Under the pieces are notes generated by a model, which ran no database searches, was not told the origin of the DNA, and saw only the letters and a list, made by a program, of their open reading frames with translations. Both the position numbers and the translations under genes were made by a program. From the NCBI RefSeq assembly GCF_000377905.1, contig NZ_KB898880.1:1-64000 (forward strand): 64,000 nucleotides of DNA, in the 5' to 3' direction. This stretch comes from Thioalkalivibrio sp. ALMg11. GTDB taxonomy: Bacteria > Pseudomonadota > Gammaproteobacteria > Ectothiorhodospirales > Ectothiorhodospiraceae. This document shows, one piece after another, positions 53,080-60,135 of the stretch. The stretch's first letter is position 1. Each line of letters opens with the position of its first letter.

Positions 53080-53337
53080 TCAGCGATAGGCTTCACGGCG
53101 GTGGCCTATTTTAACCACCGTGATGATCAGCTGGTCGTCCTTGATCTCGTAGAGGATGCGGTAGACGCCCTGCCGCACACGGTATCGCTCCTGGGCGGAC
53201 AGCTTCTCGCTGCCGGGTGGGCGGGGGTCATCGGCCAGTGACGCGATGCGTTCGAGGATGCGACGTACGTCCTTGTCGGGAATCCGTCGCAGGTCCTGGG
53301 CGACGGATTGACGGACGACGACCTCAAATCTTGCCAT
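53080..53337 (-). CDS. RelE/ParE-family toxin
   Basis: An 85-residue basic protein. The pattern VRQSVAQDLRRIPDKDVRRILERIASLADDPRPPGSEKL and the C-terminal RYRVRQGVYRILYEIKDDQLIITVVKIGHRREAYR match RelE-superfamily toxins, which either cleave mRNA on the ribosome or (ParE branch) inhibit gyrase. Its start overlaps the end of the antitoxin gene by 14 bases, the usual arrangement. It sits 10 bases beyond the convergent parE gene. Confidence 0.88.
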   Translation of the reverse strand: MARFEVVVRQSVAQDLRRIPDKDVRRILERIASLADDPRPPGSEKLSAQERYRVRQGVYRILYEIKDDQLIITVVKIGHRREAYR

Positions 53338-53557
53338 GCGCCTTCAGGTCGTCGAGGAGTGCCTCGTAGGTCATGGTTGGCTCTGCGACGCGATCTTCGA
53401 ACGCCTGCAAATCCTCCTGATCCTCGATCAGTGTCTGGCGCACGGCACGATTGACCAGATCGGAGACCGAGCAGTGCGTGGAGGCGGCCTTCAGGCGCAG
53501 TGCCCGGTGTAAGTCCGGTTCGAAATAGACGGTGGAACGTTTGTTTGGCTCGTTCAT
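53324..53557 (-). CDS. Ribbon-helix-helix antitoxin
   Basis: A 77-residue protein starting MNEPNKRSTVYFEPDLHRAL, a ribbon-helix-helix DNA-binding N-terminus (STVYFEPDLHRALRLKAASTHCSVSDLVNRAVRQTL), followed by an acidic C-terminal tail that would wrap the toxin. The ATG at 53557 has ggagg six bases upstream on the minus strand; an in-frame ATG at 53590 is less well placed. The perfect palindrome 38 bases upstream is its likely operator. Confidence 0.85.
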   Translation of the reverse strand: MNEPNKRSTVYFEPDLHRALRLKAASTHCSVSDLVNRAVRQTLIEDQEDLQAFEDRVAEPTMTYEALLDDLKAHGKI

Positions 53558-53595
53558 CGGGGCCTCCATGATGCTTGGTACCATGGACATCGTAA

Positions 53596-53638: not shown

Positions 53639-56600
53639 TCAGGCCCGCGCCGATGGGCGCGAGCGCAGCCAGTGATACAGGGCCGGCAGCACCAGCATGT
53701 TGAGGGCGGTGGAGCTGAGCAGGCCGCCCAGGATTACGATGGCCATCGGGGCCTGGATCTCGGTGCCGGTCTCGCCCAGGCCCAGGGCCAGCGGGATCAG
53801 CGCCAGCGCGGCGGTAAGCGCGGTCATCAGGATCGGGGTCAGCCTCTCCAGCGCACCGCGTTCCACGGCCTCGTCCAGCGGCACGCCCTCGGCCGCCAGG
53901 CTCTGGTAGCGGCTGATCAGCAGCAACCCATTGCGCACGGCGATGCCGAACAGGGTGATGAAGCCGACCAGGGCCGCGATGGTCATCACGCCGCCCATGG
54001 CGAACACCGCGATCACCCCGCCGATCAGGGCCAGCGGGATGTTGACCATCACCAGCAGGACCAGGGTCAGCGAGCGCAGGGCCAGCTGCAGCACCAGCAG
54101 CATGGCGACCAGGACGCCGGCGGATACGATCACGATGGTCCGGGTGGCCTGTGCCTCGGCCTCGAACTGGCCGCCCAGCTCCACGCGATACCCCTCGGGC
54201 AGCTCCACCCGCTCGTCGATGGCGGCGCGGACCTCGTTGGCCGCGCCATGCAGGTCGCGGCCCGCCACGTTCGCACTGACCACCAGGCGGCGCTCGGCAT
54301 TCTCCCGGTTGATCTGGTTGGGGCCGCGTTCGATCCGGGGTTCGGCGACCTCGCCCAGACGGATGTGGTGTCCGGTCGGCGTGCGGATCGGGATGTCCGC
54401 CAGGCCGTCGATCACGCGGTGTTCCGCGGGCAGGCGCACGACCAGGTCGAAGCGTCGTTCGCCCTCGAAGATCTGCGCGACGCGGGCGCCACGCCAGGCG
54501 GTCTCGACGGTCTCGGCGGCATCGGCCACGGTCAGGCCGTAGCGGGCGAGGGCGGTGCGGTCGGCATGCAGCCGGACCTGGGGCACCGCCGCGACGGGCT
54601 CGACCGACAGGTCGACGATGCCGTCGATTCCTTCCAGGGTCGCCTCGACCTGCTTCGCGAGACGTTGCAACTCGCCCAGCCCGGGGCCGAAGACCTTCAC
54701 CGACAGGTTTGCGCGCACGCCGGTGAGCATGTGGTCGATGCGGTGCGAGATCGGCTGGCCGATGTTGAACTGGCCGGGGAAGGCGGCCAGTCCCGCGCGC
54801 AGCTCCTCGAGAAACGCCTCCTTCCCCTGCGGTAGCGGGCCCAGACGGACATCCAGTTCGCTGAGGTGGGGCGGTTGGGTATGCTCCGCCCCCTCGGCCC
54901 GTCCGGTGCGGCGGGCGGCGGACAGGATCGCATCCTGCTCCAGCAGCCAGCGTTCGACCTGGCCGGCCATCTCCGCCGAGGTTTCCAGGCTGGTTCCGGG
55001 CGGCGTGGCCATCTCGATGGTCAGGCTGCCCTCGTTGAAGTCGGGCAGGAATGATCGTCCCAGCAGCAGCGTGGCCGCCAGCGTGGCCACGGCGAGGATG
55101 GTGGAGATCGCGAGGATGCTGCGCCGGAACCGGAGCGTGGCGCGCAGCAGCGGGCGGTAGCCGCGTTGTAGCAGGGCGGCCACTGGCGGTTCGCGCCCGG
55201 CGTTGCGGCGCGCGATCGCGGGCAGCAGCCAGCGGGCGAGCACCGGCGTCACGGTCAGGGCCACCATCAGCGATGCGGCGATCGCGATCAGGTAGGCCAC
55301 CCCCAACGGCTGCAACAGGCGACCCTCCACCCCGCTCAGGAAGAACAGCGGGGCGAACACCAGCATGATGATCACGGTGGAGAAGACCACCGGATAGCGC
55401 ATCTCCGAGCAGGCCTGGCGCACGGTCTCGTCCAGGCTGGCGCGATCGCGCTCGCCACCGTTCTCGCGCAGGCGGCGATAGATGTTCTCCACAAAGATGA
55501 TGGCGTCGTCGACCAGCGCGCCGATGGCGATGGTCATGCCCCCCAGGGTCATGGTGTTGATCGTGATGCCCAGTGCCTGCAGGGCCAGCAGGGCGACGGT
55601 CAGCGACAACGGTATGGCGAGGACCGAGATCAGCGTGATTCGTACGCTTAGCAGGAACACCAGCAGGATCAGCACCACGAAGATCGCGCCGTCGCGCAGG
55701 GCCTCGGCGACGTTGGCCACGGCCGTCTGGATGAAATCGGCCTGACGAAACAGGTTGGGTTCGAGGGTAATGCCCTCGGGCAGGCCCGCTTCCAGCCGCG
55801 CGAGCGTCGCGTTGATCGACCGGGTCAGTTCGAGGGTGTCGGCATCCGGCTGTTTGGAGACGGCCACGACCACGCCGGGGTGCCCATTCACGCCGCCGTC
55901 ACCGACCGGGATGCCCGGACCCATCGCGACCTCCGCGACATGTCGCACCAGGATCGGCATGTCGTCGCGCACGGCGACCACGGACTGCTCGATCTCATCC
56001 AGGCGTTCGGCGCGACCGAGGAAGCGGATCAGGTAGTCCTGCCCGCCGTCGCTCAGCCGGTCGCCGCCCGCATTGCGGCTGGCCTGCTCCACAGCGTCGC
56101 GGACCTCGGTGAGATTCAGGTTGAACGCCGCGAGGCGCTCGGGGGATACCTGCACCTGGTACTGGCGGACCTGGCCGCCCAGGGTGGTCACCTGGGCTAC
56201 GCCGGGGATGGCCTCCAGCTGGCGCGCCACTACCCAGTCCGCGACCTCGCGGGCGCGCATGCCGTCCTCGCGGGCGTCGTCGCGTACGCCCACATAGGCG
56301 ATCTCGCCCATGACCGAACTGATCGGCCCCAGCTGCGGGGCGGCGACCCCTGCGGGCAGTTGCGACTGCACGCGGCCCAGGCGCTCGTTGACCACCTGCC
56401 GGGCCTGGTAGATCTCCTCGCCCCACTCGAACTCCACCCACACCAGCGAGAACCCGGCCACGGACTGCGAGCGTAAGCGGCGCACACCGGATGCGCCGCT
56501 TACCGCGGACTCGATCAGGTAGCTGACCTGCTGTTCCACTTCTTCGGCGGCCAGGCCGGGGGCCTCGGTCATCACGGTCACGGTAGGTGCGGTCAGGTCG

Positions 56601-56719
56601 GGGAACACGTCGATCGGGGCCTGGCTTGCCTGCCAGGCCCCCAGCAGCAGGATGCCCAGGGCCCCGGCCATCACCAGCAGACGGTTGGCGAGGGACCATC
56701 GAATCAGTCGATCCAGCAT
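53639..56719 (-). CDS. Heavy-metal efflux RND permease (CzcA/CusA-like)
   Basis: A 1026-residue inner-membrane proton-driven pump. Hydrophobic segment 1 (LLVMAGALGILLLGAW) precedes porter loops (AAEEVEQQVSYLIESAVSGASGVRRLRSQSV). The fourth helix reads AIGALVDDAIIFVEN: the Asp and Glu relay residues are present, but the first position is Ala as in CusA rather than Asp as in CzcA. SHRIDHMLTGVRANLSVKVFGPG is CzcA-like. The metal is therefore uncertain. It is the last gene of the operon; an aagggg site precedes the ATG. Confidence 0.92.
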   Translation of the reverse strand: MLDRLIRWSLANRLLVMAGALGILLLGAWQASQAPIDVFPDLTAPTVTVMTEAPGLAAEEVEQQVSYLIESAVSGASGVRRLRSQSVAGFSLVWVEFEWGEEIYQARQVVNERLGRVQSQLPAGVAAPQLGPISSVMGEIAYVGVRDDAREDGMRAREVADWVVARQLEAIPGVAQVTTLGGQVRQYQVQVSPERLAAFNLNLTEVRDAVEQASRNAGGDRLSDGGQDYLIRFLGRAERLDEIEQSVVAVRDDMPILVRHVAEVAMGPGIPVGDGGVNGHPGVVVAVSKQPDADTLELTRSINATLARLEAGLPEGITLEPNLFRQADFIQTAVANVAEALRDGAIFVVLILLVFLLSVRITLISVLAIPLSLTVALLALQALGITINTMTLGGMTIAIGALVDDAIIFVENIYRRLRENGGERDRASLDETVRQACSEMRYPVVFSTVIIMLVFAPLFFLSGVEGRLLQPLGVAYLIAIAASLMVALTVTPVLARWLLPAIARRNAGREPPVAALLQRGYRPLLRATLRFRRSILAISTILAVATLAATLLLGRSFLPDFNEGSLTIEMATPPGTSLETSAEMAGQVERWLLEQDAILSAARRTGRAEGAEHTQPPHLSELDVRLGPLPQGKEAFLEELRAGLAAFPGQFNIGQPISHRIDHMLTGVRANLSVKVFGPGLGELQRLAKQVEATLEGIDGIVDLSVEPVAAVPQVRLHADRTALARYGLTVADAAETVETAWRGARVAQIFEGERRFDLVVRLPAEHRVIDGLADIPIRTPTGHHIRLGEVAEPRIERGPNQINRENAERRLVVSANVAGRDLHGAANEVRAAIDERVELPEGYRVELGGQFEAEAQATRTIVIVSAGVLVAMLLVLQLALRSLTLVLLVMVNIPLALIGGVIAVFAMGGVMTIAALVGFITLFGIAVRNGLLLISRYQSLAAEGVPLDEAVERGALERLTPILMTALTAALALIPLALGLGETGTEIQAPMAIVILGGLLSSTALNMLVLPALYHWLRSRPSARA

Positions 56720-56731
56720 GTCGCAGTCCCC

Positions 56732-58336
56732 TTAGTGCGCGTGGCCGTGGCCAATGTCATCGGAATCCCGGCCCGCCAGCAGGACCGCATAGGCGCCCTG
56801 GGTCACCACGCGCTCATCCGCCTCGATGCCGGAGAGGATCTCCACTCGTCCGGCGGAGCGGGCCCCGGTATGGACCGGGCGTCGTTCGAACGATTCGCCC
56901 CCGGTTTGCACGATCACGATCGGCACGCCGTCGTCGTCGATCAGCGCCCCGACCGGGAGCGTGACGCGATGGCGGGGCGGCCCGGCCGCGAGCGAGACCG
57001 TGACCGGCATGCCGGGACGGTACTGGGTGTCGGCGGCTTGCAGGGCGAAGGCGACCGGAAGCGTCTGCCCCGGGCCGTCGAAGGCACCGCCTTCCCACAC
57101 CGGTTCGCCCCCGACGGCCAGCCACTCGCGACTTCCCGGTTGGCGCACGGCCGGGTCGGCCAGCGACGTAACGCGTTCCAGATCCGCCGGATAGAGGTGC
57201 GCCACCAGCCACAGATGCTCGCCGTCCAGCAGGCTGGCCAGGTGCTGGCCGGCCTGTACGATCTCCCCGGGGCTGACATCCAGGGATTCCACCCGTCCGC
57301 CAGCCGGGGCGCGCAGGGCAAGCGTCCCGGAAACGGCGCTGCCGTCGAGCCGTTCCTGGCGGTCACGGGCGTCGTCCAGCTCGGCCCGGGCGGTGTTGCG
57401 TTCGCGGCGGGCTTCCACCACCCGGCTGTCGGCGATCACGCCCTCCTCGGCAAGACCCGTCAGACGTTCCAGGTCGGCCTCGGCCGCGGTCAGGCGTTCC
57501 TGCGCCCGGGCGAGATCCAGGGCCAGACCGCTGGAGGTGCCGCTGTCCGGCAACACCGCCAGGCGCATCAGACTGTCGCCGGCGTGCACCTCGCGGCCGG
57601 GTGCCGGCCAGTCCCCGTCCGCCGTAATCACCCCATCGGCTGGTGCGACCAGTCGGGTGCGTTGGCCGGGTACCTCGCGGATCGTCCCGGGGACCGCGAT
57701 GCGTTCGGCAAACGGCTCGTAACGGGCCGAGGCAGTGGCAAACCGCATGCGCCACTGCGTCTCCTTGAGGAAGGTGATCGTGTCGTCCGCGTCGTGTGCG
57801 TGGTCGTCATCGTGCGCGTGCCCGTGGTCATCCCCGTCGTGGGGATGGCCCCGGTCGTCGGCATCATGGTCGTGCCCGTGGTCCTCGTCGGCGGGGTGCG
57901 CATGGTCGTCCTCGTGGCCATGGCGGTGTCTGCCCGGGATCTCCACCTGACCGAGGGTGCTTTCGCGGATGCCGTTGGCATCTTGGTGCACGCCGGTCAG
58001 GTAATAGCGCCCGGCTTCCGGCAGTTGCAGGGTGACGGCGAAGATGCCCTCGCGGTCGAGATGGGCAGTGGCTTCGCTGAATACCTCCCCGTAGCGGTTA
58101 TGCATCTGCAGGGTCAGTTCCCCGGTGGTGACTGGACGGAAGTCGTCCAGCCAGGTGGCGTGGACCAGGAAGGTCTCCGAGGCCCCGGGCTCCAGGGGCC
58201 CGGCCTCCAGGAACCATTCCAGTCCCGCATCCCAGTGGGTGATCTCGAGGTCCTCGGCCAGGGTGGGGCCGGTCGCCAGGGCCAGGACCAGCAGGATGGC
58301 GATGCGCGTAATCCGGTGGGTGATTCGGTATGTCAT
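56732..58336 (-). CDS. Heavy-metal RND periplasmic adaptor with His-rich segment
   Basis: A 534-residue CzcB/HlyD-type membrane-fusion protein. Signal peptide 1 to about 27; an Ig-like N-terminal domain (about 30-133, LTLQMHNRYGEVFSEATAHLDREGIFAVTLQLPEAGRYYLTGVHQD); a segment of 50 residues (136-185) with 15 histidines among aspartates; then barrel-sandwich and coiled-coil regions (VVEARRERNTARAELDDARDRQERL). The C-terminus ends GHGHAH. The His-rich stretch probably binds Zn, Co, Ni or Cd before handover to the pump. It overlaps the next upstream gene (ATGA). Confidence 0.92.
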   Translation of the reverse strand: MTYRITHRITRIAILLVLALATGPTLAEDLEITHWDAGLEWFLEAGPLEPGASETFLVHATWLDDFRPVTTGELTLQMHNRYGEVFSEATAHLDREGIFAVTLQLPEAGRYYLTGVHQDANGIRESTLGQVEIPGRHRHGHEDDHAHPADEDHGHDHDADDRGHPHDGDDHGHAHDDDHAHDADDTITFLKETQWRMRFATASARYEPFAERIAVPGTIREVPGQRTRLVAPADGVITADGDWPAPGREVHAGDSLMRLAVLPDSGTSSGLALDLARAQERLTAAEADLERLTGLAEEGVIADSRVVEARRERNTARAELDDARDRQERLDGSAVSGTLALRAPAGGRVESLDVSPGEIVQAGQHLASLLDGEHLWLVAHLYPADLERVTSLADPAVRQPGSREWLAVGGEPVWEGGAFDGPGQTLPVAFALQAADTQYRPGMPVTVSLAAGPPRHRVTLPVGALIDDDGVPIVIVQTGGESFERRPVHTGARSAGRVEILSGIEADERVVTQGAYAVLLAGRDSDDIGHGHAH

Positions 58337-59592
58337 TGGGTGTCCTCCACGAGGCCGAGCCCCGCTGCAATGCGCAGTTCGCGCCACTCCGCCCAGCTCT
58401 GGGCAAGCAGATCCTGTTCCTGCTCGATCGCGTTGAAATGGGTGTTGTAGGCCTCGAGTACTTCCAGCAAAGAGGCCTCGCCGCTCTCGTAGCCGCGGTA
58501 AGTCAGGTCGCGCACGCGCCGGGCGGGCACCAGCGTCTGGTTGCGGTGGCGGTCCAGTTCGTCCAGCATGTGCGCGAGGTGCACGCGGCCGACCTCGACC
58601 TGGCGGGTCAGGTCGCGCCGCAGGGCACGGACCTCGGTCTGGCGTGTGTAGTGGTCCGCCACGGATTCGCGGACGCGCCCCTGGTTGCGATCCCATAGCG
58701 GCAGTTCGAGCTGCAGCGCCACGCCGGCGGAGATTTCCCGGCGGCCGTCGATCACGTCGCGCTCCTGAAACAGCCGGATGCCGATATCCGGGCGCCCCTC
58801 GGCACGTGCGTGGGCAATGTCCAGCTGTGCGGCCTGTTGCTGTTCGGACGCGGCCCGCAGGGCGGGGTGCGGGTCCAGCACCGTCTGTGGTTCGATCCTG
58901 GCGGGTTCCGGGGGCGGGTCGTCGAAGGCGGGGGCAGTGCCCAGCGTGGTGGGGCGCCGGTCGAGCCAGGCGGCCAGGGTGGCCCGGGCCTCGGTCCGCT
59001 CGCCCTCGGCGGCCTCCAGCTGGCGCACGGCCTCGGAGCGGAACAGGCCGATGCGCAGACGCTCGCGCTCGGACAAGTCGCCGCGTTCCTGTCGCAGTCG
59101 GGCAATGCGCTCCAGGCGCTGGGCCTCGTCCAGGCGCTCGCGCGCCAGTTCAAGCCCCGTCTCCGCCTGCTGCCAGGCATGAAACGCTGCGCCGATGTGG
59201 CCTTCCAGCTCCAGGCGTTCGGCGTGGGCCCGCGCCTCGGTCGCGGCGAGTCGGGCGGTCGCGGCATCACGTCGATGTCCGATCTGCCCCCATAGCGGGA
59301 GCGGCTGGGTGATGGCGATCCCGCTCAGCGAGTAACCGCCGCGCTGGTCCTCCAGCCCCATGCGGTTCGAGGCCTCGGCCTCCAGCGTCGGGTTGGGCCA
59401 GCGCCCCGCCTGATCCCGCGCGCCGCGCTGGGCGTCAATGCGGTGTTCGAAGGCTTCGGCCTCGGGGGATACGGACAACCCGTGAGTGACCGCCCGATCG
59501 AGTGTCCAGCGGTCCGTGTCCGCGAGCGCGGCGGGTATGCAAAGCAGTCCGATCAGTCCAGCGACCGACCAGGAAAAAACCGAATACGGCAT
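58333..59592 (-). CDS. Outer-membrane efflux protein (CzcC/TolC-like)
   Basis: A 419-residue outer-membrane channel partner. A signal peptide (1 to about 25, ending PAALA) precedes two repeated helical hairpin regions, WTLDRAVTHGLSVSPEAEAFEHRIDAQRGARDQAGRWPNPTLEAEASN and LDPHPALRAASEQQQAAQLDIAHARAEGRPDIGIRLFQERDVIDGRREISAGVALQLELPLWDRNQGR. The ATG at 59592 has a gggag site 8 bases upstream; a GTG at 59601 is too close to it. First of the three pump genes. Confidence 0.92.
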   Translation of the reverse strand: MPYSVFSWSVAGLIGLLCIPAALADTDRWTLDRAVTHGLSVSPEAEAFEHRIDAQRGARDQAGRWPNPTLEAEASNRMGLEDQRGGYSLSGIAITQPLPLWGQIGHRRDAATARLAATEARAHAERLELEGHIGAAFHAWQQAETGLELARERLDEAQRLERIARLRQERGDLSERERLRIGLFRSEAVRQLEAAEGERTEARATLAAWLDRRPTTLGTAPAFDDPPPEPARIEPQTVLDPHPALRAASEQQQAAQLDIAHARAEGRPDIGIRLFQERDVIDGRREISAGVALQLELPLWDRNQGRVRESVADHYTRQTEVRALRRDLTRQVEVGRVHLAHMLDELDRHRNQTLVPARRVRDLTYRGYESGEASLLEVLEAYNTHFNAIEQEQDLLAQSWAEWRELRIAAGLGLVEDTQ

Positions 59593-59669
59593 GGGAGGCA
59601 CTCCCCATTGATGACGATCCAGGCTGCGCCCCAGTAGAGACGTCAGCGCGCTACGTTCGAATCAAGGGG

Positions 59670-60041
59670 TCAGGCGGGCGGGCCGCGCAGGGGTGGTGCG
59701 AGCCAGGGAGGGGATGCGCGAAGGGGGTGGGTGCGGTCCGCGATGCGAGGAGGTGCGCGCGGGGCCGCCACGGACAGGTCGCCGGCCGTCGTTGGCAGCG
59801 CCGCGCCGGGCAGATCGATAACGGTGACCGGCTTGCCGGTGGTGGCCTGCGGTGTCAGATCGACCTCGGCCGACTCGTCGTGATGGTGCGCGTGCCCGGC
59901 ATCGTGCGCCGCATGCGGCGATGACTCGTGCGCGTCGCCCACGTGGAGGTGCAGCCCCGCCCCCTGCAACAGGGGCATGGCCAGCACCAGGCTCAGGACC
60001 AGCAGGGCGTGCAGCCACGTATGACGGTTGGTAGTGCGCAT
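59670..60041 (-). CDS. Small exported His-rich protein leading the metal-efflux operon
   Basis: A 123-residue protein. Residues 1 to about 28 form a signal peptide (LHALLVLSLVLAMPLLQGAG). A cluster of nine histidines spans 31-54 (HLHVGDAHESSPHAAHDAGHAHHHDE). The C-terminus is Pro/Arg-rich (SPPWLAPPLRGPPA), an ending I associate with CzcI/DUF2946 or CopL-type small proteins at the head of metal-efflux operons. It is 77 bases upstream of the czcC-like gene. No ribosome-binding site is visible before its ATG. Confidence 0.75.
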   Translation of the reverse strand: MRTTNRHTWLHALLVLSLVLAMPLLQGAGLHLHVGDAHESSPHAAHDAGHAHHHDESAEVDLTPQATTGKPVTVIDLPGAALPTTAGDLSVAAPRAPPRIADRTHPLRASPPWLAPPLRGPPA

Positions 60042-60049
60042 CGCGCCGG

Positions 60050-60078
60050 AATCTACGCCGGGTCCCGGACAAGCGCAA
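60050..60078 (-). promoter_or_regulatory. Candidate promoter of the metal-efflux operon
   Basis: On the minus strand, -35 ttgcgc (complement of 60073-60078), a 17-base spacer and -10 tagatt (complement of 60050-60055). Transcription would begin near 60043, two bases before the ATG of the His-rich protein. No MerR-type dyad spacer of 19-20 bases is seen. Confidence 0.4.
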
Positions 60079-60108
60079 GACGCCGCGCGTGCATGGGTTG
60101 CGTAAATA

Positions 60109-60130
60109 GCCCCCGGGGGCTCCCGGGGGC
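60109..60130 (-). terminator. Probable terminator downstream of the Old Yellow Enzyme gene
   Basis: On the minus strand a 9-bp GC stem (gcccccggg / cccgggggc) with loop agcc is followed by tattta. It lies 5 bases past the end of the flavin oxidoreductase gene and separates it from the metal-efflux promoter. The U-tract is short. Confidence 0.5.
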
Positions 60131-60135
60131 CGGTT

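Follow-up and report, generated by a model that had tools for sequence, protein, structure and literature searches.

CutF of Rhodobacter capsulatus and the CutF-like proteins are encoded by small exported ORFs preceding a metal gene, with a putative metal-binding motif, a proline-rich C terminus and a stem-loop over the downstream Shine-Dalgarno (SD) sequence (PMC9973294). Translation and export of the CutF leader and its proline-rich end are reported to be needed to open the stem-loop over the SD of cutO, and the proline-rich end alone was not a strong stalling sequence in the assay of that paper (PMC9973294). We analysed a window of 64,000 nucleotides of Thioalkalivibrio sp. ALMg11 DNA, in which a leader ORF preceding czcCBA shares the first three of these features and may form such a stem-loop, as predicted by folding. 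The window protein passes the CutF-like filters of PMC9973294, with <150 aa, PP in the last 15 residues, a signal peptide and a same-strand gene within 1000 nt. However, CutF uses a CxxxC motif and copper, whereas the window leader has His only and precedes czcCBA; the His-only clusters 14 and 17 described in the same paper precede HupE/UreJ genes instead (PMC9973294). The word "leaderless" does not occur in the main text of that paper.

CruR of Bordetella pertussis (DUF2946, PF11162) likewise resembles the window leader as an exported uORF with a C-rich stretch and a C-terminal RAPP, needed for metal regulation by CruR (PMC9426467). CruR, however, has CXXC, uses copper and lowers an uptake operon through Rho, whereas the window leader precedes an exporter and has His only; in addition, the CruR transcript has its 5' end 45 bp upstream of the potential start codon, unlike the near-leaderless layout predicted for the leader family (PMC9426467). 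Since it controls uptake, CruR works in the opposite direction to that proposed below for the czcCBA leader.

RAPP and RGPP are described as giving the most robust arrest of the RAPP-like class, which EF-P does not relieve, and small exported proteins with these motifs close to their ends are encoded upstream of diverse genes, including metal genes (PMC12992588). In vitro, translation of CruR stops when the third and fourth RAPP codons occupy the P and A sites (PMC12992588), and structures of RAPP-arrested ribosomes are available (PMC10951233). ApdA, ApdP and a Streptomyces set have the same arrest motif near the C terminus of small exported proteins encoded upstream of the regulated gene, but ApdA and ApdP serve protein localisation, unlike the czcCBA leader (PMC10951233; PMC12992588). 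How RAPP/RGPP arrest regulates diverse downstream genes is called an open question in PMC12992588, the main text of which contains neither "czc" nor "leaderless". CzcI of Cupriavidus metallidurans is also a small protein encoded before czcCBA and a suggested metal sensor, but it is reported in PMC9973294 without a C-terminal proline motif, whereas the window leader has RGPP.

Gene organization of the locus

The preliminary description had placed a small exported protein with nine His in 24 residues before czcC, and these His residues occupy positions 31-54 of a 123-aa ORF. The features of the locus are as follows.

60041-59670, minus strand: leader ORF encoding the exported His-rich RGPP leader (ATG at 60041, TGA at 59672-59670; 123 aa plus stop)
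59880-59951, minus strand: His-rich segment (residues 31-54, nine His), presumed metal-binding
59676-59687, minus strand: RGPP motif (R119-G-P-P122), one residue before the stop
58333-59592, minus strand: czcC, outer-membrane efflux protein (ATG at 59592)
56732-58336, minus strand: czcB, adaptor with its own His/Asp-rich stretch
53639-56719, minus strand: czcA, heavy-metal RND pump, above the cut-off of the CusA/CzcA family model TIGR00914
60136-61242: old-yellow-enzyme-type gene on the other flank of the leader, named by reading
60131-60108, minus strand: G+C-rich hairpin between the old-yellow-enzyme-type gene and the leader promoter (-23.9 kcal/mol, z -2.83)

The leader protein has a hydrophobic export signal at its N terminus (signal peptide judged by eye) and ends in SPPWLAPPLRGPPA, and Cys is absent from all 123 residues of the translated ORF. 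The czcC gene begins 77 nt behind the leader stop. The nearest NCBIfam model to CzcC was IhpA, with a score below the cut-off, and CzcB, for which a longer frame was used as the query, scored above the cut-off of the RND adaptor model TIGR01730. By reading of the ORF list of 52-64 kb, no metalloregulator gene was recognised.

Homologues of the leader and their C-terminal motif

Three of the other 29 genomes in the genus contain close orthologues (93, 86 and 83% identity), the genus also yielded a weak fourth match (L007) with an internal stop, and a distant homologue (38%) was found in another genus of the same family. A profile of four sequences matched in 44 of 370 genomes of the class (E 0.05), and a profile of 28 sequences matched in 55 of 369 (E 0.001) and, across the phylum, in 5 of 398 genomes, two of which lie outside Gammaproteobacteria. 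From the four-sequence profile, the 30 loci listed were taken, and of its weak matches beyond these, two that the 28-sequence profile recovered; the latter profile gave 68 places, of which 23 were already in the set, 38 were added and 7 (fragments, frames with stops and one place at a contig edge) were left out. Before counting, we also left out L033-L038 (weak four-sequence-profile matches in frames without family features), L006, which coincides with L008, L007, with an internal stop and E 0.005, L002, with E 0.135, and L009 and L010, whose contigs equal those of L003 and L005 in length. The 70 loci thus read comprise 68 from Gammaproteobacteria and two from outside the class.

M1, H31, H33, R119 and P122 were invariant in all 28 aligned homologues. 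The C-terminal motif was RAPP in 57, RGPP in 10 and neither in 3 of the 70 loci, so that RAPP or RGPP stood 0-6 residues from the end in 67 homologues, a frequency that is partly selected because the homologues were found with motif-containing profiles. The preliminary description had suggested the C-terminal LRGPP motif as a handle for orthologues; homologues do share it in the form RAPP/RGPP, but its meaning had been missed, RGPP being a published ribosome-arrest motif (PMC12992588). By analogy with these arrest peptides, we infer that the window leader protein would arrest its ribosome at RGPP. CxxC or CxxxC occurred in only 4 of the 70 homologues.

A second hydrophobic segment was present in 62 of the 70 homologues and ended a median of 28 residues before the residue predicted to occupy the P site (interquartile range 26-29). 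It fell below the threshold in the four Thioalkalivibrio forms (the window and L003-L005) and in L018, L027, L051 and L068.

The downstream relative was of the CzcC type in 55 and of the hupE type in 15 of the 70 loci, in every case within 0.9 kb, and in 56 loci no more than 300 nt separated the leader stop from the start of the downstream match; at L024 and L030 the match was late or weak despite the start of a long ORF close by. Nine hupE loci (L025, L032, L041-L044, L046, L047 and L076) have a possible ORF of ~95-113 aa between the leader and hupE.

The proposal that the protein represents an undescribed subtype agrees with the model searches, since the window protein had no Pfam match, and its only NCBIfam contact was a chance-level model (E 0.1), neither collection thus naming it at a significant score. 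It did not match the CzcI model NF045614, and none of the 28 aligned members matched DUF2946 (PF11162) at E 0.1. Weak contacts with the LpqS, CopL and CzcI models (best E 0.007, 0.03 and 0.003, respectively), made by one or two of the 28 members each, hint at a wider CutF-like world to which these sequences may be related without membership.

Predicted promoter and near-leaderless start

The following promoter-like elements precede the leader.

60078-60073, minus strand: -35-like TTGCGC, 17 nt from the -10, with TTG kept in 4 orthologues
60055-60050, minus strand: -10-like TAGATT, ending 8 nt before the ATG, with a predicted transcript start at about 60043

With the usual spacing behind a -10 element, transcription would begin 1-2 nt ahead of the leader ATG. 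The leader promoter is weak by consensus (7 of 12 matches), and neither a consensus promoter scan with a 9-of-12 threshold nor a terminator scan gave a hit in the region. Since the consensus scan found none, the promoter assignment rests on comparison. Four orthologues show strong conservation of the promoter region, and in three orthologues the -10 is TAGATT or TAGAAT at an unchanged distance from the ATG.

The start rule failed in 4 of the 70 loci, and 5 of the other 66 were set aside as redundant, leaving 61. TAnnnT ended 5-9 nt before the ATG in 34 of these 61 loci, compared to 3.3 expected from all other ATGs in the same loci (tail p 7e-29), and occurred in only 3-11 of the 61 loci in each of eight other upstream 5-nt windows. 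In the 64,000-nt window itself, the pattern preceded 3 of 172 candidate ATGs of long ORFs. The favoured -10 form of the family was TA(G/A)ACT, and the match to a -35 element at 16-18 nt averaged 3.26 of 6 positions in the family loci vs 2.53 at shifted places. TAnnnT was missing in the remaining 27 loci, in some of which the start choice is possibly wrong.

An SD duplex energy of -4 or below was found in 6 of 66 leaders vs 60 of 62 downstream genes, the latter count being favoured by selection because the downstream starts were partly chosen by their SD. None of the 34 loci with TAnnnT had an SD, vs 6 of the 27 loci without it. The nearly leaderless promoter and absent SD of the preliminary description, and the unusual mode of translation deduced from them, thus recur as predicted traits of the family. 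An alternative start with a ribosome-binding site, which was named there as a refuting result, was not found upstream in the leader frame, where GTG 60482, TTG 60464, TTG 60272 and the leader ATG all lack an SD (energies -1.7 to -2.2). The only in-frame codons preceded by an SD-like stretch are further down, at GTG 59942 (-6.2), CTG 59954 (-9.4) and CTG 59858 (-6.5), and their use would remove the export signal. Moreover, 28 of the 61 loci have no upstream in-frame start at all, and 17 of these 28 have TAnnnT. The leader mRNA thus seems to be near-leaderless as predicted from its sequence, a layout backed by conservation across the family.

In a comparison of DUF2946 (CruR-type) leaders (L082-L113), 7 of the 26 loci left after removal of redundancy had TAnnnT 6-9 nt ahead of the ATG vs 0.91 expected, the comparison set of 33 loci having a poor start choice. 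Because some DUF2946 leaders show TAnnnT, near-leaderless starts may reach beyond the leader family.

Predicted masking of the czcC SD

The end of the leader and the region behind it contain the following elements.

59661-59669, minus strand: anti-SD strand CCCCTTGAT, directly behind the leader stop
59603-59612, minus strand: partner strand ATCAATGGGG, overlapping the czcC SD GGGGAG (59606-59601)
59665-59765, minus strand: C-rich, G-poor stretch (78-nt windows; C up to 59%, G down to 18%), a possible Rho loading site

The nine bases after TGA are CCCCTTGAT in the window and CCCATTGAT and, twice, CCCGTTGAT in the three orthologues, and each is predicted to pair with ATCAATGGGG. By the toeprint rule, the 3' edge of a ribosome is taken to lie 15 nt ahead of the P site. 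With P121 in the P site, the predicted 3' edge falls at 59666 and the ribosome would cover exactly the CCCC behind the stop. In folding calculations, the cost of opening the czcC start region in the window fell from 12.0 with the edge at 0 to 9.7 kcal/mol with the edge at +3, and it fell from 13.2 to 10.1 in L003, from 12.7 to 9.4 in L004 and from 12.0 to 9.3 in L005.

A downstream start within 300 nt was found in 58 of the 70 loci, and L023, L028 and L029, whose start looked wrong, were left out of the folding and G+C-class pairing tests. In 46 homologues, each representing one group with similar sequence behind the stop, the opening cost dropped by a mean of 1.80 kcal/mol between edges -15 and +6, compared to 0.10 in shuffled sequences; the drop exceeded that of the shuffles in 36 of the 46 (Wilcoxon p 5.7e-5), and in the other 10 the gain was no greater than in shuffled sequences. 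The mean predicted SD accessibility in these loci was 0.17-0.19 with the edge anywhere from -60 to -15 relative to the end of the stop codon, rose to 0.28 at edge 0 and 0.33 at +15, and levelled off after about +15. Within G+C classes, the sequence at -18 to 0 paired better with a leader's own downstream SD than with the SDs of other homologues (47 loci; p < 0.035, best 0.0027, which is nominal because 53 windows were tested), and the single windows -117, -51 and +9 also gave p < 0.04. The window hairpin itself was not more stable than shuffles (z -0.49), and pair counts in the four close orthologues gave no covariation. With the arrested ribosome in place, ~9 kcal/mol of opening cost is left in the window, where a second small hairpin, read from the sequence, also pairs with the czcC SD.

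In the pairing test without G+C classes, a second peak appeared at -54 to -48 besides that at -18 to 0, and in many loci the leader codons ~51-37 nt before the end of the stop pair better with their own SD (p 0.017 at -51 within G+C classes). This second peak is possibly due to chance or to an alternative partner of the SD.

Discussion

Considering these results, we propose that the leader is probably a nascent metal sensor of the CutF/CruR kind, which controls czcCBA in cis through ribosome arrest, according to the following scenario. The near-leaderless mRNA would start about 0-3 nt before the ATG, the first ribosome would load onto the 5' end independently of an SD, and the growing chain would be exported. 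Arrest may then occur at the Arg-Gly-Pro-Pro motif, which lies in the final five codons ahead of the stop, with the third motif residue in the P site, as is known for RAPP peptides. Metal binding to the exported His-rich part may alter the duration of the arrest; since czcCBA encodes an efflux pump, a longer arrest is expected in the presence of metal, in line with reports on CutF. Once stalled, the ribosome would cover the CCCC behind the stop, a geometry obtained by folding, and would thereby break the SD-masking hairpin, so that czcCBA could be translated when metal is present. The second hydrophobic segment would be leaving the tunnel at the stall, so that its insertion could pull on the chain, and its tight spacing is compatible with a mechanism that senses force or insertion where the chain emerges. 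In the Thioalkalivibrio forms without this segment, pulling would need export of the His-rich part.

A CruR-like Rho-dependent attenuation, in which the arrested ribosome shields a C-rich Rho site and its release lets Rho stop transcription before czcC, is a less likely but serious alternative. CruR is described as operating in this way (PMC9426467), the leader end is C-rich in the window (C 59%, G 18% around 59725), and all 70 loci have more C than G over the final 60 nt of the leader, with a mean difference of 0.27 vs 0.035 further upstream. However, Pro codons alone make this stretch C-rich, and Rho does not explain why the SD opening cost falls stepwise at the stop codon; Rho attenuation and the SD hairpin can also act together. 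The preliminary description had suggested a metal-sensing protein or a chaperone. The former is supported for this small protein, but a finished protein acting in trans, such as a CzcI-like periplasmic metal-binding protein or chaperone, is unlikely even though the leader has an export signal and a His-rich segment and 1 of 28 members touched the CzcI model (E 0.003). R and the last P of RxPP beside the stop are among the invariant residues, and CzcI reportedly has no C-terminal proline motif (PMC9973294). The chaperone reading is unsupported; the RxPP motif, its place beside the stop and the predicted SD masking rather favour an arrest leader acting in cis, for which being translated would be what counts.

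It is also very unlikely that the operon is an ordinary leadered and transcriptionally controlled one, with TAGATT arising by chance and transcription starting further upstream or translation further down. The weak consensus match of a promoter that the scan does not find, as well as the SD-like stretch before the downstream GTG 59942, would suit such an operon. The excess of TAnnnT (34 of 61 loci vs 3.3 expected), its retention in 17 of the 28 loci that have no upstream in-frame start, the lack of an SD in 60 of 66 leaders and the loss of the export signal from a start at GTG 59942 argue against it. The region near 60120, suggested earlier as the site of an upstream start, is a strong G+C-rich hairpin. 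A DNA-binding regulator at 60040-60135, for which a search had been recommended, is not needed by the arrest model but is possible, given the strong conservation of the promoter region in four orthologues.

More tentatively, czcCBA and hupE in many Gammaproteobacteria might be headed by one near-leaderless RAPP/RGPP arrest family that senses exported metal via His and not copper via Cys. The start at the 5' end would then be part of the device, with the pioneer ribosome loading on the emerging transcript and its arrest preceding the SD hairpin or Rho. If true, nascent-chain metal sensing would extend from copper to CzcCBA and HupE export systems, and a group of near-leaderless regulatory genes would exist in Gammaproteobacteria. 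The leader family amounts to a large set of natural replicates upstream of two types of gene, with a testable geometry comprising the arrest site, the SD mask, the fixed spacing to the second membrane segment and the lack of a 5' leader. In the main-text literature on arrest peptides and on leaderless mRNA in Gammaproteobacteria, no report of a near-leaderless arrest leader was found among the matches listed. Individual family members may be included in the tables of Ozturk et al., since 5,334 CutF-like proteins are listed there. What appears to be new is that a near-leaderless layout runs through the family, that the predicted SD masking is position-specific even in divergent homologues, and that a His-only leader is linked to czcCBA.

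Further observations concern the operon and its flanks. CzcB (56732-58336, minus strand) also carries a long His/Asp-rich stretch (HGHEDDHAHPADEDHGHDHD...), so that the czcCBA operon would encode two His-rich exported proteins. The G+C-rich hairpin at 60131-60108 has no long U-run and looks degraded in L003, and it may separate the transcript of the old-yellow-enzyme-type gene from that of the leader. At the other end, a RelE/ParE-like small protein and an antitoxin-like small ORF, both assigned by reading, lie at 53080-53590 on the minus strand between czcA and a parE/gyrB-like gene.
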